DNA of 34,753 bases from the NCBI GenBank assembly GCA_030432195.1, contig JAUIHE010000014.1, positions 1 through 34,753 on the forward strand. Reading direction: 5' to 3'. The position numbers and the translations under genes are program-made. This document shows positions 7,751 through 34,546 of the stretch, piece after piece. Source of the stretch: Alphaproteobacteria bacterium (GTDB lineage: Bacteria; Pseudomonadota; Alphaproteobacteria; UBA7985; JAUIBT01). Position 1 is the stretch's first letter, and every line of letters starts with the position of its first letter. The notes below the pieces were generated by a model, which saw only the letters and a list, made by a program, of their open reading frames with translations, made no database searches and was not told the DNA's origin.

Positions 7751-8767
7751 ATGCGGCGCGTTCTCGTCACCGGCTCGGCTGGCTTTATTGGATCGTTCGT
7801 CTGCCATGCTCTGTTGCGGCAAGGCGATGCTGTGTTGGGCTATGATGGCGTAACCGATTACTATGACCCCGCCCTGAAGCGGGCCCGGCTGGCCCAACTT
7901 GCGCGGCATAACGGTTTTCAGGCCGTCGAGGCGCGCTTGGAAGATACGGCCAGCTTAGAGGCTGCGTGCGAGGCCTTCCGCCCGCAAGTCATCGTCCATC
8001 TAGCGGCCCAGCCCGGCGTGCGCTACAGCATCGAAAATCCGCGCAGCTATATCGACAGCAATATCGTTGGCAGTTTTAACGTGCTGGAGATTGCGCGTCG
8101 GTATCAAGTACAGCACTGCCTCATGGCCTCGACCTCGTCGGTCTATGGCGCGGGCAGGGACATGCCCTACCACGAGCGGCAAAAATGCGACACGCCAATG
8201 AGCCTTTATGCGGCCACCAAAAAGGCTTGCGAAGCACTGGCCCATAGTCAGGCTCACTTGTTTGGCTTTCCCGTCACCATGTTTCGTTTCTTCACGGTCT
8301 ATGGGCCTTGGGGCCGCCCGGATATGGCGCTGATTAAATTCTCAGACGCCATCATGCAGGGCCGCCCGATCGACGTCTATAATCACGGTGATCTCTATCG
8401 CGATTTTACCTATGTCGAAGATCTGGTCGAAGGCATTCGCTTGTTGATCGACTGTCCGCCACAGCGCCCCGCGGCCTCGGAAGACATAGCCAATGACGAT
8501 AGCTTGAGCCCGGTGGCGCCATACCGTGTGGTGAATATCGGCAACTCAAAACAAGTCCACCTGATGGACTTCATTGCGGCGCTGGAACGGCATCTGGGTG
8601 TGGAAGCGCAGAAGAATTTCTTGCCCATGCAGCCCGGCGACGTGGCGGCAACTTGGGCCGATTGCCGTTTGTTGGAGCGGTTGACCGGTTATCGCCCCCG
8701 TACCAGCCTGGATGAGGGCGTGGCTCGATTTGTGGCTTGGTATCGCCAGTATCGGGCTGAGACGTAG
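7751..8767 (+). CDS. NAD-dependent epimerase/dehydratase, UDP-glucuronate 4-epimerase-like
   Basis: 'VLVTGSAGFIGSFVCHALLRQGDAVLGYDGVTDYYDPALKRARL', 'HLAAQPGVRYSIENPRSYIDSNIVGSFNVLE', 'SSVYG', 'YAATKKACE' (YxxxK). Confidence 0.88.
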   Translation: MRRVLVTGSAGFIGSFVCHALLRQGDAVLGYDGVTDYYDPALKRARLAQLARHNGFQAVEARLEDTASLEAACEAFRPQVIVHLAAQPGVRYSIENPRSYIDSNIVGSFNVLEIARRYQVQHCLMASTSSVYGAGRDMPYHERQKCDTPMSLYAATKKACEALAHSQAHLFGFPVTMFRFFTVYGPWGRPDMALIKFSDAIMQGRPIDVYNHGDLYRDFTYVEDLVEGIRLLIDCPPQRPAASEDIANDDSLSPVAPYRVVNIGNSKQVHLMDFIAALERHLGVEAQKNFLPMQPGDVAATWADCRLLERLTGYRPRTSLDEGVARFVAWYRQYRAET

Positions 8768-8999: not shown

Positions 9000-9191
9000 A
9001 TGAAATCCCTAATGTTTGCTGCCCTGGCCGCTATAGCATTGTCCACTTCGGCGCACGCCGGCCTGGTCCTAACCTCCGGTGGCTGCGTCTTGGCCAGCGG
9101 CAATTGCGTAACGCTAGAGGCGCCAGGCACACCATCACCTGGAATTTCTGGCAATCCAGCGCCTGTAGAGCCTGAGCCTATACTGGGCTGA
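9000..9191 (+). CDS. Small secreted protein, paralogue 1 of a three-gene tandem family
   Basis: MKSLMFAALAAIALSTSAHA|GLVLTSGGCVLASGNCVTLEAPGTPSPGISGNPAPVEPEPILG: signal peptide with AHA|G cleavage-like site, CX6C, GISGNPAP. SD-like TGGAG upstream; terminator at 9229. Confidence 0.72.
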   Translation: MKSLMFAALAAIALSTSAHAGLVLTSGGCVLASGNCVTLEAPGTPSPGISGNPAPVEPEPILG

Positions 9192-9228
9192 TGCAAGGCC
9201 ACTAGGCCCTAAGGAACCAACCCCAAAC

Positions 9229-9273
9229 AGCGCGCGAACAAGTCTCTCCTAGACCGTTTGCGCGCTTTTTTTT
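9229..9273 (+). terminator. Rho-independent terminator after small-protein gene 1
   Basis: AGCGCGCGAAC ... GTTTGCGCGCT (11-bp stem, one G-U) followed by 8 T. Confidence 0.88.
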
Positions 9274-9599
9274 GGGGGGGGCGCTTGGGCACTCTTTGGA
9301 ATCGGCCTTCGAGCAAGTTAGTGCGGGGGGCCATGTCTTCGAGGCCGCTCGCGTAGCTTTGCCTTTTGCCAAAGGCAGTAGGGACGATATCCAGGCGCAG
9401 GGCGCATGTCCAAAAGGGCGCAAGACCTTATCAAGTAGGGCCAAAACATCTAGCGAAAGAGATTGCATCCATACCGAAGCGAGGCTCCGTCGTTTGCGGT
9501 TTGTTGCTAAACCCCCGGCGTTGCTTGGCCAATTTGGGTCGAGCCTTAACCCGTCCTTCACGGCGCTTGTCCGCCTTGAGGGCCTATGGAGACGCCGAA

Positions 9600-9794
9600 A
9601 TGAAAACACTATTTTTCGCAGCGATGGCGGCCTTGGTGCTCGTAGCCAACGCGCATGCAGGTCAAGTGGTGACCGCTCGCGGTTGTGTCCTGACCGATGG
9701 TCACTGCGTGAATCTGGACGCCTCCAGCAAACCCTCGCCAGGGATCTCAGGCAATCCCGCGCCGGTCCCGGCGCCACCCGTGATTGACATCTAG
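9600..9794 (+). CDS. Small secreted protein, paralogue 2 of the tandem family
   Basis: MKTLFFAAMAALVLVANAHA|GQVVTARGCVLTDGHCVNLDASSKPSPGISGNPAPVPAPPVIDI: same architecture as 9000-9191; TATGGAG upstream; strong terminator at 9835. Confidence 0.72.
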   Translation: MKTLFFAAMAALVLVANAHAGQVVTARGCVLTDGHCVNLDASSKPSPGISGNPAPVPAPPVIDI

Positions 9795-9834
9795 GGTAAG
9801 CCCCGCAACTCTCATAGAATCCTAGCACTTGCAA

Positions 9835-9879
9835 AGCGCAACACACTCGCCTTCGGGCTGGTGTGTCGCGCTTTTTTTT
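9835..9879 (+). terminator. Strong Rho-independent terminator with TTCG tetraloop
   Basis: AGCGCAACACACTCGCC-TTCG-GGCTGGTGTGTCGCGCT followed by a run of 8 T; 17-bp stem with two mismatches and one G-U. Confidence 0.92.
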
Positions 9880-10100
9880 GCGCCCAATTCAAGGTCTGGC
9901 GAGCGTCGCGGTGGCCCTGCGCCGGGCTGGCGCCCCAACATGGCAGCTTCGCTTCATGCCACCGCCCGGATCGGTTGGTTACATAGTGTGACTATGCGCC
10001 GGGCTGCTTCTGCGATATTATGACGCTCCTGGGGGCTAGCCTCTGAGGAAAATCGCCTATATTGACAATGCGATAATTAAACACTTTTGGAGTGCACGTC

Positions 10101-10349
10101 ATGAAGCAACTATTTCTCACCGCCCTGACCGCCGCCACCCTGACCGCCGCCACCCTGACCGCCGCCACCCTGACCGCAGCTGCGCTGACATCTCCGGCCT
10201 ATGCGGGGTTGGTCGTTACGAGCCAGAACTGCGTGCTCAACCAGGGCGTTTGCGTCGTCTTGGGCGGAACAGGGTCTGGTGCAACAAGCATTACCGGCAA
10301 CCCTGCGCCAACCCCGCCAGTGCCGATTCAAGATCCGTTTGACGACTAG
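10101..10349 (+). CDS. Small secreted protein, paralogue 3 of the tandem family, with repeat-expanded signal peptide
   Basis: MKQLFLTALTAATLTAATLTAATLTAAALTSPAYA|GLVVTSQNCVLNQGVCVVLGGTGSGATSITGNPAPTPPVPIQDPFDD: shared GxVxTxxxCVLxxGxCVxL and ITGNPAP. Confidence 0.72.
   Translation: MKQLFLTALTAATLTAATLTAATLTAAALTSPAYAGLVVTSQNCVLNQGVCVVLGGTGSGATSITGNPAPTPPVPIQDPFDD
10125..10184 (+). repeat. 15-bp in-frame tandem repeat (CTGACCGCCGCCACC x3 plus one degenerate copy)
   Basis: Units at 10125-10139, 10140-10154 and 10155-10169 are identical; 10170-10184 is degenerate. Encodes LTAAT repeats in the signal-peptide hydrophobic region. Confidence 0.93.
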
Positions 10350-10543: not shown

Positions 10544-10939
10544 ATGGCTGTTGATGAAGAACTGTCGAAGAACTTTCGCGATGCCTTAGAGGGGCTGCCG
10601 GGTACGTCTGACAAAAAAATGATGGGCGGGACTTGCTTTTTTGTGAACGGCCACATGGTGGGCGGTGCTCACCGCGAAAAGTCCGGCCGTGGCTTGTTCA
10701 TGTTTCGCGTCGGCGTCGATAACGTGGCGGCGGCCGAAGTGATCGGCGGCGGTGAAAAGCTGGTCCAAGGCGGCCGTCTCATGCGCGGGTTTTATTTCGT
10801 AGAGGCCGACGACTGCCCGCCCGAGCTGTTCGAAGCCTGGAAGAGCCTTGCGGTCGCCCACGCTATGTCGTTGTCGCCGAAGGAACCCAAAGCAGACGGC
10901 AGCAGGCGCAAACTTGCGGGCACAAAGGCTAGGTCATGA
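10544..10939 (+). CDS. TfoX/Sxy N-terminal domain protein
   Basis: 'KKMMGGTCFFVNGHMVGGAHREKSGRGLFMFRVG' and 'GRLMRGFYFVEAD' are typical of TfoX-N proteins; ATG at 10544. Confidence 0.8.
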   Translation: MAVDEELSKNFRDALEGLPGTSDKKMMGGTCFFVNGHMVGGAHREKSGRGLFMFRVGVDNVAAAEVIGGGEKLVQGGRLMRGFYFVEADDCPPELFEAWKSLAVAHAMSLSPKEPKADGSRRKLAGTKARS

Positions 10940-10950
10940 GGGGTGGCGCT

Positions 10951-11658
10951 ATGGGCTTCAGCCCCGATACGCTCCAGTTTTTAGCAGAGCTCAGGGCGAA
11001 CAATACCCGTGACTGGTTCGCGCAGAACAAGCAGCGCTATGAGCGCAACGTCAAGCAACCCACGCAAGACTTTGCCGAGCACTTCGCCAAATTCATGCAG
11101 GAGCGGCACCAAAGCGCGATGCGTGCGCGCGTCTTTCGCCTCCACCGCGACATCCGGTTTTCCAAAGACAAAACGCCCTTTAACACGCATGTTCATCTGG
11201 CGTGCATGGATGAGGCGACCGGCGCTGCCTGGATGGTTGGGCTTGAGCCGGTCGAGCGCGCGAACGGACAAACAGGGGATGCAAGTCCGACCGGTCGCTT
11301 GCATTTGGGCTATGGCTGCCTTGTGTTTTCAAAGCCCCGGCTAGAGGCTTGGCGGGCTGGTGTTGCAGGTGCAGGTGCAGCTGACCTGGAGCAGGCTCTA
11401 TCCGAGGCCGCAGAGCGACTCACTGCCGGCCTAAGCCTGCGGATCAATGACCCGAGCCTCAAGCGCGTTCCCGCAGGCTTTGATCCCAGCGATCCCGGCG
11501 GCGCGTGGTTACGACGCAAGGCCTTTTGCGTCTGGATTGAGGGCTTGTCGGTGGACTTGGCCATGGGCGAAAGCGCGCTGGACGCGATCACAAAAAGCGT
11601 GACGGACCTGGAGCCGCTGCGCGCCTGGTGGTTAACAACCATGGGACCAGCAGCCTAA
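10951..11658 (+). CDS. DUF2461 (TIGR02453) family protein
   Basis: 'LQFLAELRANNTRDWFAQNKQRYE', 'RVFRLHRDIRFSKDKTPFNTHVHLAC'. The start could be 10936. Confidence 0.85.
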   Translation: MGFSPDTLQFLAELRANNTRDWFAQNKQRYERNVKQPTQDFAEHFAKFMQERHQSAMRARVFRLHRDIRFSKDKTPFNTHVHLACMDEATGAAWMVGLEPVERANGQTGDASPTGRLHLGYGCLVFSKPRLEAWRAGVAGAGAADLEQALSEAAERLTAGLSLRINDPSLKRVPAGFDPSDPGGAWLRRKAFCVWIEGLSVDLAMGESALDAITKSVTDLEPLRAWWLTTMGPAA

Positions 11659-24580: not shown

Positions 24581-27500
24581 ATGACTGTCACCCAGGATGC
24601 AAACAAAGTTTCACAAACACCAGACGCCTTGCGCTTTGCGGTCGAGGGCCTGTCGTGTGCCTCATGCGTTGGGCGGGCCGAAAAGGCGCTGAGCGGCGTT
24701 GCAGAGGTAACCAGTGCCAGCGTCAATCTGGCGACCAAGACCGCCGAGGTTGAGGGCAATACGTTGAGCGCCCACGATCTTGCAGCCGCCTTGGACGAGG
24801 CGGGCTATCCCGCCGTGCGTCGGTCGGTGAGCCTGGAGATCGAAGGCATGACCTGCGCTTCTTGCGTGAACCGGGTTGAAAAGGCGCTGGCCTCAGCGCC
24901 GGGCGTGGTGAGCGCTGCGGTCAATTTGGCGACCAGCCGGGCAGAAATCGAAGTCTTGGCGGGTGCGCCAAGCCAGGAAGAAGCCAGCATTGCCGCCGCC
25001 ATGCAAGCGTCAACCGAGACCGGGTATCCCGCGCGACGCTTGGGACGCAGACCCACACTCACGTTGGACGGCAGCCGGTTGCGCTTTGCCGTCGAGGGCC
25101 TGTCGTGTGCCTCATGCGTTGGGCGGGCCGAAAAGGCGCTGAGCGGCGTTGCACAGGTAACCAGTGCTAACGTCAATCTGGCGACCAAGACCGCCGAGGT
25201 TCAGGGCACTGCGCTGAGCGCCCACGATCTTGCAGCCGCCTTGGACGAGGCGGGCTATCCCGCCGCGCGTCGGTCGGTGAGCCTGGAGATCGAAGGCATG
25301 ACCTGCGCTTCTTGCGTGAGCCGGGTTGAAAAGGCACTGGCCTCAGCGCCGGGCGTAGTGAGCGCTGCGGTCAACCTGGCGACAAGCCGGGCAGAAATTG
25401 AGGTCCTGGCGGGTGCGCCAAGCCAGGAAGAAGCCAGCATTGCCGCCGCTATGCAAGCCTCAACCGAGACCGGGTATCCCGCCCATCGGCCGGGTATGAG
25501 CGCGGGGTACAGCGCGGCCGATGAAGACCATGTGCCCCTGAGACCGGCAGAACGTCAGGCCAAAGAACGCGCGCTCACGTGGCGCAACTTCGTGATTGCT
25601 GGCGTTTTGACCGCCCCCGTTTTTGTGCTTGAGATGGGCGGGCACTTGATACCGGCATTTCACATGTGGGTGCAGGCCACCATCGGCCAGACGACCAGTT
25701 GGTTGCTGCAATTTGTGCTGACCAGCCTGGTGCTGATCTGGCCGGGGCGCAAATTCTTTCAAAAAGGCCTGCCGGGCCTCATCAAAGGCCGCCCGGACAT
25801 GGATGCTTTGGTCGCGATGGGCGCAGGCGCGGCCTGGCTTTATTCAAGTGTAGCGACCTTCGCCCCTAGCCTGCTGCCAGAAGCGAGCCGGGCGGTCTAT
25901 TTCGAGGCTGCGGCAGTCATCGTGACCCTGATCTTGCTAGGGCGCTTCTTGGAAGCTAGAGCCAAAGGTGAGGCGGGCGCGGCCATTCAAAAGCTTTTGG
26001 ACCTTCAGGCCAAGACCGCTTGGGTCGAACGATCAGGCAGGTTTGTTGAGCTGGCGATAGAAGATGTGACGGTCGGCGATCGCCTGCAATTGCGTCCCGG
26101 CGAGACCGTGGCCGTGGATGGCCGCGTGGTGAGCGGGCAATCCAACGTCGATGAGAGCATGATTTCTGGTGAACCCCTGCCGGTGGCCAAATCCGAAGGC
26201 GACGGTCTGGTCGCGGGGACCATCAATGGTCAGGGCAGCCTGGTCTATCAAGCCGAGGGCGTCGGCAGCGATACCATGCTGGCGCGGATCATCCGTATGG
26301 TCGAGCAAGCCCAAGGCAGCAAGCTGCCCGTGCAAGATTTGGTCAACCGCATCTCGGCTTGGTTTGTCCCGGCGGTCATGGTGATTGCGGCGGCGACCTT
26401 GCTGATATGGGTGCTGGCTGGCGCGCCGATCAATCAAGCGCTGGTAGCCGCGGTGTCCGTGCTGATTATTGCCTGTCCTTGTGCCATGGGCCTTGCGACC
26501 CCGACCTCAATCATGGTGGGGACCGGACGGGCCGCCCAGCTGGGTGTCTTGTTCCGCAAGGGCGCGGCCCTTCAGAGCCTCAATCAGGCTGAAGTGGTGG
26601 CCTTCGACAAGACCGGGACCTTGACACAAGGGCGACCAGAACTCACCCACTTTGAAACCCAGCCCGGCTTTGACGAGGAAGGCCTGTTGGCGCAGGTGGC
26701 ATCAGTTGAAGCGGCGTCCGAACACGCCATCGCCGAGGCATTGGTCCGGGCCGCAAAAGCGCGCGGCCTAGAGCTGCCAGAGCGACAGAGCTTTGAGGCT
26801 GTCCCCGGTTACGGTGTGGTGTCCGAGGTGGCGGATCAGCGCATGACGATCGGCGCGGCACGCCTGATGCAGCGCGACGGCATCGCGCTGGGCGCGCTGG
26901 AAGAACGTGCAGACAGCCTTGCTCATCAAGGTGTTACGCCCTTGTTCGTCGCGGTCAATGGCAAGCTGGCGGCACTGGTTGGCGTCAGCGATCCCCTCAA
27001 GCCCAGTAGTCAAGCCGCTGTCGCGGCCTTGCAGGCCTCGGGTCGAAAGGTGGCCATGATTACCGGTGATGCGCAAGGTACAGCCGAGGCCATTGCCGCC
27101 ACGCTGGGTATCGACAGCGTGCGCGCAGAAGTCCTGCCAGACGGCAAGGTCCGCGCTATCGAAGAATTGCGCGCTGAACATGGCAAGCTGGCTTTCGTCG
27201 GCGACGGCATCAACGATGCGCCGGCCCTGGCATCGGCAGACTGCGGCTTGGCCATGGGCAGCGGCACCGATGTCGCCATTGAAAGCGCCGATGTGGTGTT
27301 GGTGTCGGGCGACCTGTCAGCGGTGACGCGAGCCTTGCAACTGAGCCGTGCGACCATGGCCAATATTCGCCAAAACCTGATCTGGGCCTTTGGCTATAAC
27401 TTGGTGTTGATCCCGGTGGCTGCGGGCTTGCTCTACCCCAGTTTCGGGCTCCAGCTTTCACCGGTCTTGGCGGCGGGCGCTATGGCGGCTTCCAGCGTTA

Positions 27501-27643
27501 TGGTGGTAACAAACGCCCTGCGCCTGCGTTGGGTCGGCCAGCCTGGGAGCGATACCCGGCCCGGAGGCGACGAGCCAACGACGGGGCCAACAACGGGGCC
27601 AATGACGGGCCACGTGGTGGCGCCCGCTTCAGAGGCGGCCTAG
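24581..27643 (+). CDS. copA: Copper-translocating P1B-type ATPase with four N-terminal HMA domains
   Basis: Four CASC metal-binding motifs (GLSCASC, GMTCASC, GLSCASC, GMTCASC), '[21 protein letters not shown]', '[12 protein letters not shown]', '[34 protein letters not shown]'. Confidence 0.96.
24629..25483 (+). repeat. Tandem duplication (450-bp period) of the two-HMA segment within copA
   Basis: 24629-25033 and 25079-25483 align at constant offset 450 with only about 20 mismatches counted by eye. Confidence 0.92.
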
Positions 27644-28894: not shown

Positions 28895-29329
28895 CTAGTC
28901 ATCTGGGCCCAGGGCCTTGTCGAGCTGGCGCCGCTCTTTCTTGGTCGGCCGGCCGGTCCCTTCTTCACGAACGGCGGGCGCCGACATCCGCACAGGTCGA
29001 TCCCTTTCTTCGCCGTCAGCCAACGGGCCACGCTCGGGCGGCGGGGCCAAGTCGTTGTAAAGCTGCCGGGCTTCTGGCGCCGGGCCTCGCCGAGTGCCCA
29101 GGGCCAAGATTTCAATCACTCGGGTCAAACTGCCCTGCTGAAAGGTCAGCACGTCACCTGGCCGGACGGCGTAGTGGGCCTTGCTGGTGGGGGCCTTGTT
29201 GACCCGCACCTTACCGCCTTGCACCACCTTGGAAGCCAGGCTGCGGGACTTGAAAAAGCGCGCCTGCCAGAGCCACTTGTCGATGCGTAGGCTCTCGGTG
29301 CTTGCGTTGCCCTGTTCGGCGCTGCTCAT
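28895..29329 (-). CDS. S4-domain RNA-binding protein (Hsp15-like)
   Basis: 'LRIDKWLWQARFFKSRSLASKVVQGGKVRVNKAPTSKAHYAVRPGDVLTFQQG' matches S4/HslR. Start overlaps the helicase stop (ATGA). Confidence 0.87.
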   Translation of the reverse strand: MSSAEQGNASTESLRIDKWLWQARFFKSRSLASKVVQGGKVRVNKAPTSKAHYAVRPGDVLTFQQGSLTRVIEILALGTRRGPAPEARQLYNDLAPPPERGPLADGEERDRPVRMSAPAVREEGTGRPTKKERRQLDKALGPDD

Positions 29330-32300
29330 GAAGCCTTCTTGTTTAGTTGGTCTTTCAAACCGGCCAGCACCGCGAAGGGCGAATCGGGGTCCATGGGCTT
29401 ATCCTTGGCGGGGCGCCCCTTACCACCAGAGCTGTCACCTGCGTGGCGCTTGGCCTGATGGCGTCGGTCATCATCACGGCGGGGCTTGCCCTTGCCGGGC
29501 TTCTTGCCGCGCGCCTCGTTGGTTCTTTGGGTCTGGTTGGCTTCGCCCTTGGCGGCCTCGTCACCGCTCGATTGCGGACGATTGCGCTCGGACGCTTGGC
29601 CGTGGCGCGGGCCGCTGTCTTTATTCCCGTTGCGCGGGCCACTGTCTTTGCCCCCGTGGCGTGGGCCACTGTTTTTGCCCCCGTGGCGTGGGCCACCGTC
29701 CTTATTACCGTGGCGCGGGCCACTGTCTCTCTCACGGCGCGGAGGGCGGAACGCAATGACCTCGAATTGCAGCTCTGGGCGTTGTTTCTTGCCCTTCTTG
29801 GCCTTGTCGCTGGTCCCACCGGATGCTTCGCTAGTGTCGCCGATTTCACTGAGACCTGTCTCGTCGCTCTGGGCATGCACCGCCTGGTCCTCAGCCACCG
29901 GGTCTGTCGCGGCGTCTTGAGCGGTTTCGTCCGTTGCGGCCTCTAGGCTTGGCGGTTCAGCGCCGGGAGTGGCATGGTCTGCTTCGGCTGCTTCAGCTTG
30001 TTCGCTCGCCTCGGCTTCAGGTGCAGCGGGGCTTGCTTGCTCGGCCGACGGGGCCTCTGCTTGGCTCTCTGCATCCGTGTCAATTGGCGCTTCGGGCGGT
30101 AGCTCATAAATCCGGTAATCGAGGGCTGCAAGTGCGCCGCGCACCAGCTCACTGTCTCCGCCCATCAAAGTTGCCATGAGGCGATTTGAACGTGCCGGTT
30201 CGTCGCGGGTGGCTTTGCGCGCGGTGCGGAAAGCCACGTCGGCGAAGTTGTCCAAGACATCGGCACGCATGATCATGCGCTTATCGCCTTTACCCATAAT
30301 GACAAAGCCCATGGCCTGCCAGAATCCAGCATCGTCGTTGTCCAGGGCTGGGCGCGCGGTCAGACCGGGCGCGGGCAGTTCGGGAATTGGTTTGTCGTTG
30401 TGCAGGCTCCAAAGCAGGGCGCGCAGCGCGCGGTTGCGCGGGCGCACCAAGTTGCCGAGCCAAATTGCATGACGACCGAAGACCACGCCCAAGTCCTTCA
30501 GGGCCTTGCGGCTGGCGCGGTCCAGAGTGACTTGCTCAAGCGCTTGTTCACGCTGTAAGCATCCAAAGGCCTCGACCAGTTGGAAGGCAAGGCCCTTGGC
30601 GGCTCCGGTCAGCTCAGCGTCACGCAGACGGGTCAGCGTGGTCAGGCGCTGTTGGATATCACGTTGCGCCCAAGTCTCCACATAGGCAGCGAGCGTTTCG
30701 CGTTCGCTCTGTTCTAACATGTTGGTCTCGTGCAGACGCAGCTTGGGCGTGAAGCGGTCGCTGCCAGCTTGCAAGGTGGCGATCTCATGGCCTTGCCAGG
30801 TCACGGACCCGGTGTCGGTGATGGCATAGACCGCGCCAGCCGGTGCCAGCATAGCAGCCAGACGCTGTTTGACCGGTTCGCCCATGGCGCTCTTGGCTGC
30901 CGACAGCAAGCTGCGGGCGTCTTTGGCCTCTAGGGCGTCGATAGGCCTAAAGTTAAGCCCAATCAATTTGCCCACGTGTTGGCCTTCTACCTGAACGTCG
31001 TTTTCAATAATCTCTGCCACGGCGGCGCTTTCCCTTGCTTTCATCAGCACTGCGGCGCGCTGGTCCACGAACTGCAAGGTCAAGCGTTCGTGGAGCGCGT
31101 CCGACAGCCTGTCTTCTATCTGACGGGTCACTTCTTGCCAATGGCTGTTGTTCTGCAACCAGTCTCTTCGGTGCGAAATAAAGGTCCAAGTGCGGATCGA
31201 GGCCAAGCGATTGGTCAATGTGTCGATGTCTCCACGCACATCGTCTAGACGAAGCACCTGTTTTGCGATCCAATCCTCGGGGATGCTCGCCTCGGGGCCC
31301 ATCAAGAATCCATACAGGGCGGACAGCAGCTTGACGTGGCTGCCGGTCATGGTCTTGTGGAAGTCGGGCACCTGGCAGACATCCCACAAAATGCCGACTG
31401 CCGCCGGACCCAGCGCCAAGCGGCGGACCTGTTCTTCTTTCGCCAGATAGCGCAGGGCGCGCTGATCATCGGCTTCGCGGCCCCGGACTAGTTCGCTGCG
31501 GGGCGAAGGCGCGTCTAGGGAGCGCAGCAGGCGCTGGATGTCGTAAAAGTCCAGGTCCGGGTTTCGCCAAACCAGATTTTCGAGCGGCGGGAAGGTGTGG
31601 CTCTCGACCGCTTCAACGATATCCGGGTCCAGATCGCCCAACTCTTGGGCCATGGAAAAAGTACCGTCGTTCTGATAGCGGCCTGCCCGGCCCGCGATCT
31701 GAGCAACCTCAGCGGCATCAAGGCGGCGAGGACGGCGGCCATCAAATTTGGTCAGCCGGGTAAAAGTCACATGGTCCAAATCCATGTTGAGCCCCATGCC
31801 AATGGCATCGGTGGCTACCAGATAATCAACTTCGCCCGCCTGGAACATGGCCACTTGCGCGTTGCGGGTTCGCGGGCTGAGCGCGCCTAATACCACCGCT
31901 GCTCCCCCGCGATGGCGCCGGATCGTATCGGCGGTGGCGTAGACATCTTGGGCGGAAAAGGCCACGACGGCCGAGCGCTTGGGAATCCGCGACAGCTTTT
32001 TAGGCGCCACATAAGACAGCTTGGAAAAGCGCGCTTTGGAAATGATCCGCACTTGCGGAACCAGGCGCTTAATCAGTGGCTCGATCGTGGACGAGCCCAT
32101 GAACATGGTCTCTTCAAGCCCGCGTGCATACAACAGTCGTTGGGTAAAGATGTGCCCGCGTTCAAGATCAGAAGCGAGCTGGATCTCATCGACGGCCAGG
32201 AACTCGGTGCTGATATCCAGCGGCATGCTCTCGACCGTGCAAATCCAATAAGCAGGCGCCCGCGGAACGATCTTTTCTTCGCCCGTCAGCAAGGCCACCT

Positions 32301-32472
32301 GCTGAGCGCCGCACTTGAGCACCAGCTTGTCAAAGACCTCGCGCGCCAGTAGGCGCAACGGAAATCCCATAATGCCCGACTTGTAGGACAGCATGCGATC
32401 AATGGCAAAATGGGTCTTGCCGGTGTTGGTCGGGCCCAGCACTGCTGTTACGAATGCATCATTATAGCTCAT
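29326..32472 (-). CDS. SUV3/MgpS-like DEAD/H helicase with repetitive basic C-terminal tail
   Basis: 'VTAVLGPTNTGKTHFAIDRML...GFPLRLLAREVFDKL...LTGEEKI...VDEIQLASDLERGHIFTQRLL...ATDAIGMGLNMDLDHVTF...QIAGRAGRYQNDGTFS'. ATG at 32472. Confidence 0.9.
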   Translation of the reverse strand: MSYNDAFVTAVLGPTNTGKTHFAIDRMLSYKSGIMGFPLRLLAREVFDKLVLKCGAQQVALLTGEEKIVPRAPAYWICTVESMPLDISTEFLAVDEIQLASDLERGHIFTQRLLYARGLEETMFMGSSTIEPLIKRLVPQVRIISKARFSKLSYVAPKKLSRIPKRSAVVAFSAQDVYATADTIRRHRGGAAVVLGALSPRTRNAQVAMFQAGEVDYLVATDAIGMGLNMDLDHVTFTRLTKFDGRRPRRLDAAEVAQIAGRAGRYQNDGTFSMAQELGDLDPDIVEAVESHTFPPLENLVWRNPDLDFYDIQRLLRSLDAPSPRSELVRGREADDQRALRYLAKEEQVRRLALGPAAVGILWDVCQVPDFHKTMTGSHVKLLSALYGFLMGPEASIPEDWIAKQVLRLDDVRGDIDTLTNRLASIRTWTFISHRRDWLQNNSHWQEVTRQIEDRLSDALHERLTLQFVDQRAAVLMKARESAAVAEIIENDVQVEGQHVGKLIGLNFRPIDALEAKDARSLLSAAKSAMGEPVKQRLAAMLAPAGAVYAITDTGSVTWQGHEIATLQAGSDRFTPKLRLHETNMLEQSERETLAAYVETWAQRDIQQRLTTLTRLRDAELTGAAKGLAFQLVEAFGCLQREQALEQVTLDRASRKALKDLGVVFGRHAIWLGNLVRPRNRALRALLWSLHNDKPIPELPAPGLTARPALDNDDAGFWQAMGFVIMGKGDKRMIMRADVLDNFADVAFRTARKATRDEPARSNRLMATLMGGDSELVRGALAALDYRIYELPPEAPIDTDAESQAEAPSAEQASPAAPEAEASEQAEAAEADHATPGAEPPSLEAATDETAQDAATDPVAEDQAVHAQSDETGLSEIGDTSEASGGTSDKAKKGKKQRPELQFEVIAFRPPRRERDSGPRHGNKDGGPRHGGKNSGPRHGGKDSGPRNGNKDSGPRHGQASERNRPQSSGDEAAKGEANQTQRTNEARGKKPGKGKPRRDDDRRHQAKRHAGDSSGGKGRPAKDKPMDPDSPFAVLAGLKDQLNKKAS
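29601..29727 (-). repeat. 27-bp tandem repeat encoding (D/N)(S/G)GPR(H/N)G(N/G)K units in the helicase tail
   Basis: Protein tail: DSGPRHGNK DGGPRHGGK NSGPRHGGK DSGPRNGNK DSGPRHGQ, about five 9-aa units. Confidence 0.9.
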
Positions 32473-32653
32473 GGCAAAGCCCCGCCTTCTCGTCGCCAAA
32501 TGTCTTGCAAGCCTGCACGTCGTCCCCCATATGCGGGCCGTTAGCCTGCTTTTTCCTACCCAAGCCTGTGTGGCTTGTGTGCCGGTGGTTCTGGCAGGCT
32601 GTTCTGACATTCTGATACGACTATACGCGCAAAAAGAAGAGCAACAAAACCTT

Positions 32654-34546
32654 ATGACTGCCGCCGCCGCCGAACCCAAAACCTACCAATTTCAAGCCGA
32701 AGTCTCGCGTTTGTTGGATATCGTGGCTAATGCCCTGTATTCCAACAAAGAAATTTTCCTGCGAGAGCTGATTTCAAACGCTTCGGATGCCTGCGATAAA
32801 TTGCGATACCGCGCCCTTACGGAGGAGGGATTGTTGGCCAGCAATCAGGAGTTGAGCGTCTTGCTGGAACCTGACCCCCAGGCGCGGAGCCTGACAATCA
32901 CCGACAACGGCATCGGCATGAGCGAGGCGGACCTGCAGGATACCTTGGGCGCGATAGGACGGTCTGGCACCGCAAAGTTCATGGAAGCCTTGGAAAATTC
33001 CAGCGATAGCAATCTGATTGGTCAGTTTGGCGTCGGCTTCTATTCGGCCTTCATGGTGTCTGATTTGGTCACGGTTGAAACGCGCAAAGCCGGTGAAGAG
33101 CAAGCCTGGCGTTGGCAGTCGGACGGTAAGGGCGACTACAGTATCGAGCCAATCGACCAACGCCCCGTAGGTACGCGCATCATCTTGCGCCTGAAAGAGG
33201 ACGCCAGCGAATACGCTGAGCGGCACCGCCTGGAGCACCTGGTCAAGAAATACTCCGACCACATCGTGATCCCGGTTCAGATGCCCGCTGAAAAACAGGA
33301 TGTCGGCGAAGAGGGCGAAGAGGGCCAGGAATCGGACGACTGGCTGGTGACGCTGAACAAGGCCTCTGCCCTTTGGACCAAGTCAAAGTCAGACATCAAC
33401 AAGGAAGAATACGCGAGCTTCTATAAGTCGGCGGCCGGTGCTTGGGATGAGCCCTGGGAGACCCTGCACTTCAATGTTGAGGGCCACTTGGAGCATACGG
33501 GGCTGCTGTTTATTCCCTCTGCGCGCCCTTTCAATTTGTTCGAACCCGACCGCAAGAACGCCATCAAGCTGTATGTCAAGCGGGTCTTTATTACCGACGA
33601 CTGCCAGGAGCTGGCGCCCGCCTACCTGCGCTTCTTGCGCGGTGTGATCGATTCCTCCGATTTGCCGTTGAATGTCAGCCGTGAATTGTTGCAGGCCTCG
33701 CCCATCTTGAACCTGATCCGCAAAGACGTGACCAAGCGCACGCTGTCGGCGCTCAAGTCGCGCGCCAAGAAAGACGCTGAGGGCTACGATGCCTTCTGGA
33801 ACACCTTCGGAGCGGTTGTGAAAGAGGGCCTCTACGAAGATCCCGATCAACGCGACCCCTTGCTAGACTTGGCCCGCTTCCGATCCTCTACCCAAGACGG
33901 GTGGGTCAGCTTGGCCGATTACAAGGCACGCATGGTCGAAGGGCAGAACGCCATTTACTATTTGGTGGGCGAAGACCTGGAGACCGTCAAACGCTCACCG
34001 CATCTGGAGGGCTTCAAAGCCAAAGGCGTCGAGGTGCTGTTGTTGACGGATCCGGTGGACAGCTTCTGGACCTCGGTCGTTGGCGATTACCAGGATACCG
34101 CGCTGAAGTCCGTCACCCGAGGCGCCGACGACCTTGCCGCGATTAAGACCGGCGAAGAGGCGAGCGACCAAGCAGCCAGCGAGCCGGTCAAGGAAGGCGA
34201 TTTCGCCGAGCTGATCGCTGCCATGAAGACCGCCTTGGAAGAGGACGTTAAGGATGTACGTCTGTCCGAGCGCCTGACGGACTCCGCGGTCTGTCTGGTG
34301 GCCGATGAAGGCGACATGGACATGCAGTTTGCCCGCATGATGGCCGCCCACGGTCAGGAGATCCCCAAGCAAAAGCGCATCTTGGAAATCAACCCCAAGC
34401 ACGCCACCATCAAAGCGCTGAAAGAACGGCCTGCACACCTGGATGACAGCGTGCAGCTCTTGCTCGATCAGGCGTTGATTTTGGAAGGCGAAGCGCCGCG
34501 CGATGCAACCCTGTTTGCTCTGCGGCTCAGCCGTTTGATGGCCTAG
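32654..34546 (+). CDS. htpG: Molecular chaperone HtpG (Hsp90)
   Basis: 'FQAEVSRLLDIVANALYSNKEIFLRELISNASDACDKLRY...ITDNGIGMSEADL...GQFGVGFYSAFMV...RFLRGVIDSSDLPLNVSRELLQ'. ATG at 32654. Confidence 0.97.
   Translation: MTAAAAEPKTYQFQAEVSRLLDIVANALYSNKEIFLRELISNASDACDKLRYRALTEEGLLASNQELSVLLEPDPQARSLTITDNGIGMSEADLQDTLGAIGRSGTAKFMEALENSSDSNLIGQFGVGFYSAFMVSDLVTVETRKAGEEQAWRWQSDGKGDYSIEPIDQRPVGTRIILRLKEDASEYAERHRLEHLVKKYSDHIVIPVQMPAEKQDVGEEGEEGQESDDWLVTLNKASALWTKSKSDINKEEYASFYKSAAGAWDEPWETLHFNVEGHLEHTGLLFIPSARPFNLFEPDRKNAIKLYVKRVFITDDCQELAPAYLRFLRGVIDSSDLPLNVSRELLQASPILNLIRKDVTKRTLSALKSRAKKDAEGYDAFWNTFGAVVKEGLYEDPDQRDPLLDLARFRSSTQDGWVSLADYKARMVEGQNAIYYLVGEDLETVKRSPHLEGFKAKGVEVLLLTDPVDSFWTSVVGDYQDTALKSVTRGADDLAAIKTGEEASDQAASEPVKEGDFAELIAAMKTALEEDVKDVRLSERLTDSAVCLVADEGDMDMQFARMMAAHGQEIPKQKRILEINPKHATIKALKERPAHLDDSVQLLLDQALILEGEAPRDATLFALRLSRLMA

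Follow-up and report, generated by a model that had tools for sequence, protein, structure and literature searches.

Three tandem paralogous genes for small, putatively exported CX6C peptides in an alphaproteobacterium

Three consecutive genes in a 34,753-nucleotide stretch of alphaproteobacterial DNA (the window) encode small peptides, m1, m2 and m3, that share a signal sequence and a pair of cysteines in CX6C spacing. They are paralogues, and codon comparison shows that they have evolved as translated genes under purifying selection. They appear to belong to a small, young, narrowly distributed and apparently undescribed orphan family, one of a common type. The overall reading offered here, in which young, genus-restricted peptides are exported by Sec, form a disulfide hairpin and act alone outside the cytoplasm, stands at about an even chance of being right.

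The three genes and their products

The original prediction described three consecutive plus-strand open reading frames of 63, 64 and 82 aa, each with a signal peptide ending in A-x-A/G (the slash marking the predicted cut) and each with CX6C. The coordinates and translations bear out the frames, and both motifs are seen in all three products (Table 1). Each ATG is preceded by a GGAG-type ribosome-binding site a few bases 5'. Aligned end to end, the products are 51-59% identical to m1 and have in common MK, AxA/G and CX6C as well as the longer motifs T-x3-C-V-L-x2-G-x-C-V-x-L and I-[ST]-G-N-P-A-P. In m3 the hydrophobic part of the signal peptide is lengthened, in frame, by a 15-bp tandem repeat; a change in repeat number would give another signal length without a frameshift.

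Table 1. Features of the peptide locus and the broken family copy of a sister species (G001)
Feature	Position	Strand	Evidence
NAD-dependent epimerase/dehydratase, left neighbour	7754..8767	+	Pfam PF01370, E 5.1e-50
m1, 63 aa predicted exported peptide, MKSLMFAALAAIALSTSAHA then mature GLVLTSGGCVLASGNCVTLEAPGTPSPGISGNPAPVEPEPILG	9000..9191	+	translation, paralogue alignment, codon evolution
Terminator-like hairpin (GCGCGCGAAC...GTTTGCGCGC) and T run, 3' of m1	9228..9273	+	sequence, fold
m2, 64 aa predicted exported peptide, MKTLFFAAMAALVLVANAHA then mature GQVVTARGCVLTDGHCVNLDASSKPSPGISGNPAPVPAPPVIDI	9600..9794	+	translation, paralogue alignment, codon evolution
Terminator-like hairpin (AAAGCGC-A-ACACACT...GGTGTGT-C-GCGCTTT) and T8, 3' of m2	9832..9880	+	sequence, fold, shared T-run
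m3, 82 aa predicted exported peptide with a 35 aa signal peptide, mature GLVVTSQNCVLNQGVCVVLGGTGSGATSITGNPAPTPPVPIQDPFDD	10101..10349	+	translation, alignment, pS/pN
15-bp tandem repeat in m3 signal peptide, TLTAA units	10120..10194	+	repeat family D1
TfoX_N-like protein, right neighbour	10544..10939	+	PF04993, E 1.8e-5, 25.2 bits, below the cut-off of 30.1
DUF2461 protein, second right neighbour	10936..11658	+	PF09365, E 7.7e-37
Broken family copy	G001 C24, L014 1501-1747		in-frame TAA 5' of the first cysteine; has the tail of the C51 copy

Are such short frames genes at all? Likeness by chance is excluded for m1-m3: pairwise alignments of the mature parts score 103-139, and the highest score among 2000 shuffles of each pair is 63. 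The 56 codons compared between m1 and m2 contain 65 base differences, distributed 17/7/41 over codon positions 1, 2 and 3. The resulting pS of 0.83, at which synonymous differences are saturated, together with the pN of 0.22 shows translated genes under strong purifying selection on the protein, and a duplication that is not recent. In the core, pS exceeds pN for every other pair as well, by a less clear margin where the most divergent copy is involved. The original prediction of a family under selection rather than a recent copy error is therefore upheld by these values, and also by the retention of the core in a sister species. If the frames were instead chance open reading frames or a decaying repeat, the in-frame stop in one G001 copy and the absence of the family from another species (G002) would be readily accommodated. 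The synonymous excess, the core that is invariant across species, the ribosome-binding sites and the terminators argue the other way, and the codon-position data refute this reading, which is left with a negligible probability.

Two intact copies in G001 extend the comparison to five sequences. AxA/G and CX6C are kept in all five, from two species, and the family signature is G-[LQ]-h-x-T-x3-C-V-x3-G-x-C-V-x-[LV] followed by a variable Pro-rich tail. The invariant part of the family is the 17-residue CX6C core; G1, T5, C9, V10, G14, C16, V17 and two prolines are the mature residues that never vary. GNPAP occurs only in the three copies of the present species, while the G001 copies combine the same AxA/G...CX6C core with other tails. 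Thus, of the CX6C/GNPAP pattern first proposed for the family, CX6C is kept in G001, whereas GNPAP and the spacing to it vary. By eye, the core can be read as two V-h-x4-C heptads and then V-x-[LV]: VLTSGGC/VLASGNC/VTL in m1, VVTARGC/VLTDGHC/VNL in m2, VVTSQNC/VLNQGVC/VVL in m3, and VVTKRSC/VLALGTC/VKL and LTTKTGC/VKANGVC/VVV in G001.

Both m1 and m2 are followed by a stable hairpin and a T8 run, and an identical CGCGCTTTTTTTTG is present after each of the two genes. The m1 hairpin is missing from the consensus-scanner list because its loop is longer than the scanner allows. No such terminator lies between m3 and the TfoX-like gene. It is predicted that m1 and m2 are single transcription units, each with its own terminator-like hairpin. 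Upstream of m1, m2, m3 and the G001 copies, a GGGCTAGCCT-like stretch with up to 2 mismatches is present in five of six regions; as a shared motif it was dropped, being barely more frequent than in shuffles and lying at varying distances.

Distribution and gene neighbourhood

The genome that carries the window is a draft (3.14 Mb, 224 contigs, 86% complete) in which m1, m2 and m3 are the only family members; a weak match on C194 (E 0.02) has an internal stop and was rejected. Three species of the genus were sampled. In G001 two copies are intact and a third is broken by an in-frame TAA, and the family was not found in G002, a sister species whose genome is 99% complete. A strict core pattern searched in DNA, G-x-h-x-T-x3-C-V-x3-G-x-C-V, has exactly five matches in 11 genomes of the order, namely m1-m3 and the two intact G001 genes; the reversed pattern, used as a control, has zero. 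In 387 genomes of the class the strict pattern added no further copy. Profile searches of samples of 387 genomes (class) and 399 genomes (phylum) likewise added none; scoring there was limited to the 15-16 best first-look candidates of each genome, so that a diverged copy may have escaped. Two scans of GTDB contigs returned pattern matches, none of them a confirmed relative, and a translated search of plasmids and phages found no relative. Weak profile matches in two other genera of the order were both rejected, one (G009) because it lies inside another open frame, that of a TsaE-like protein, and the other (G010) because it is without a signal peptide or Cys pair.

Profile and sequence searches of Pfam, NCBIfam, PHROGs and PDB sequences found no relative, with no match over a curated cut-off; with E values up to 1 allowed, the five members match no Pfam family better than chance, and Rfam finds nothing in the window. 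This agrees with the earlier view that the peptides fit no recognised named family. Conservation of the frames in related genomes, on which the original prediction also depended, is seen in G001, where the CX6C core is kept at partly syntenic places. As far as these searches reach, the family seems to be confined to one genus, and one of its three sampled species is without it.

Have the copies multiplied once or repeatedly? The G001 copies on C51 and C24 score nearest to each other (143) and the window copies nearest to each other (103-139), which points to a separate duplication in each species. The absence from G002 implies that the family is dispensable. Separate duplications, a broken copy and absence from one species would fit a dispensable gene with fast turnover.

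In the window, the genes run epimerase, m1, m2, m3, TfoX_N-like, DUF2461. The broken G001 copy lies directly 3' of the orthologous epimerase, in the same place as m1, and the orthologous TfoX-like/DUF2461 pair lies downstream of the intact C51 copy, separated from it by two extra genes; the gene that follows this copy is on the opposite strand. From these two placements, the ancestral order was probably epimerase, peptide genes, TfoX, DUF2461, and it has probably been disrupted in G001. The remaining G001 copy (C6) is found elsewhere, adjoining a thiolase gene, and stands just 5' of a same-strand gene. In G002, a multi-copy repeat comes right after the orthologous epimerase on C10, at 39 bases into the stretch tested, and ends the contig (L024 1-165). 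It occurs in six places, several of them at contig ends. DUF2461 was not found in G002, and no transposase was identified. In this species the block has likely been lost, and a mobile element is likely to be present. Across the four loci with intact or broken copies no same-strand partner gene recurs, which counts against a role as a regulator or in an operon.

Export, fold and possible function

The signal-peptide call is based on the pattern of n-, h- and c-regions with AxA. All five intact copies have the Sec-type sequence of MK, hydrophobic stretch and AxA, and export of m1-m3 is a well-supported prediction. Signal peptidase I would cut after AxA to leave a mature peptide of 43-47 residues. 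A DsbB orthologue is encoded in all three genomes of the genus; exported cysteines could thus be oxidised and a disulfide is feasible, and the CX6C cysteines would be oxidised once outside the cytoplasm. AlphaFold2 models from full-length and mature alignments, each of five sequences only, are of low confidence (mean pLDDT 56 and 65; pTM 0.21 and 0.23). In each of them, mature residues 9-12 and 15-18 form a hairpin in the segment that contains the two cysteines, and the tail is unstructured. The models hint weakly at a small disulfide beta-hairpin in the core, and the mature peptide may be a small beta-hairpin or meander with a flexible Pro-rich tail.

What might such peptides do? Working alone, either in the periplasm or outside the cell, the peptide could perhaps be an extracytoplasmic factor that binds a target or serves the envelope; duplication within each species and diversification of the tails would tune its target. 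It would take no part in an enzyme operon and would not control a downstream gene. A more specific proposal is that these are exported disulfide-hairpin mini-proteins of a new family that arose within a single genus of alphaproteobacterial type, in which the fixed 17-residue core, a doubled V-h-x4-C heptad, displays tails that differ between species to an extracellular partner that changes fast; this is put forward tentatively and is somewhat more likely to be wrong than right.

Small exported peptides with several variants per genome and species-specific tails could also be signalling peptides or components of a matrix or adhesion system. Among the neighbours of the copies, however, there is no recurrent gene for a receptor, sensor kinase, protease or polymer; the epimerase is conserved by position. 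Such a role is considered unlikely. A slightly poorer candidate is a secreted bacteriocin-like antagonist, in which tandem, diversified exported peptides would act on close relatives. In size, export and diversified paralogues the peptides resemble class II microcins and other small secreted bacteriocins; they are disulfide-capable, differ between species and are patchy in the genus. Class II microcins have a double-glycine leader and a dedicated exporter, whereas the signal here is of the general Sec type with AxA/G and no candidate immunity gene or dedicated exporter adjoins any copy; the array has no transporter gene beside it. The mature parts, with net charges of -6 to +1, are acidic to neutral, neither cationic nor strongly hydrophobic.

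CutF of Rhodobacter capsulatus has a Sec signal, a Cys motif and a Pro-rich C-terminus (PMC9973294), and the layout of the peptides is broadly as in CutF and the DUF2946 regulators, which are small, Sec-exported and Pro-rich at the C-terminus, with at least two Cys (PMC9973294). Acting in this way, a peptide would stall the ribosome as a nascent-chain sensor and control a downstream gene. The C6 copy of G001, just 5' of its same-strand gene, would suit such a role, and is the exception. CutF-like systems have a same-strand target close downstream, the ribosome-binding site of which lies in a stem-loop; no such target is seen after m1, m2 or the C51 copy. After m1 and m2 there are terminator-like hairpins, and within 400 nt only the next paralogue lies downstream; the C51 copy is followed by the opposite-strand gene, and the copies share no downstream gene and have no metal-handling neighbour. 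CutF binds Cu through CxxxC (PMC9973294), in contrast to CX6C in every copy here, and none of the five members matches the DUF2946 profile at E up to 1. Control of this kind is quite improbable. A stand-alone extracytoplasmic factor is favoured over both a CutF-like nascent-chain regulator and a bacteriocin.

The peptides may be compared with orphan small secreted Cys proteins, which are likewise small and exported, with a Cys pair, a narrow taxon and rapid gain and loss. This is a describing term and not a homologous family, and no sequence relative was found. The family is a clean, testable example of secreted proteins that arose recently: its members are short and have invariant residues, and it is triplicated here; in the sister species it has been split and relocated, with one copy broken (G001), or is absent (G002). 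It could be used to study the origin of new exported proteins and the causes of their turnover; its practical use stays limited until it can be assigned a function.

Other features in the window

Elsewhere in the window, the open reading frame of a copper-type P-type ATPase (24581-27643) contains a recent internal duplication at 24629-25378. Its two 300-nt stretches, 95% identical and 450 nt apart, double a pair of GxTCASC metal-binding domains. On the minus strand, a large helicase-like protein (29326-32679) has C-terminal repeats of the GPRHGNKD/GPRHGGK type.
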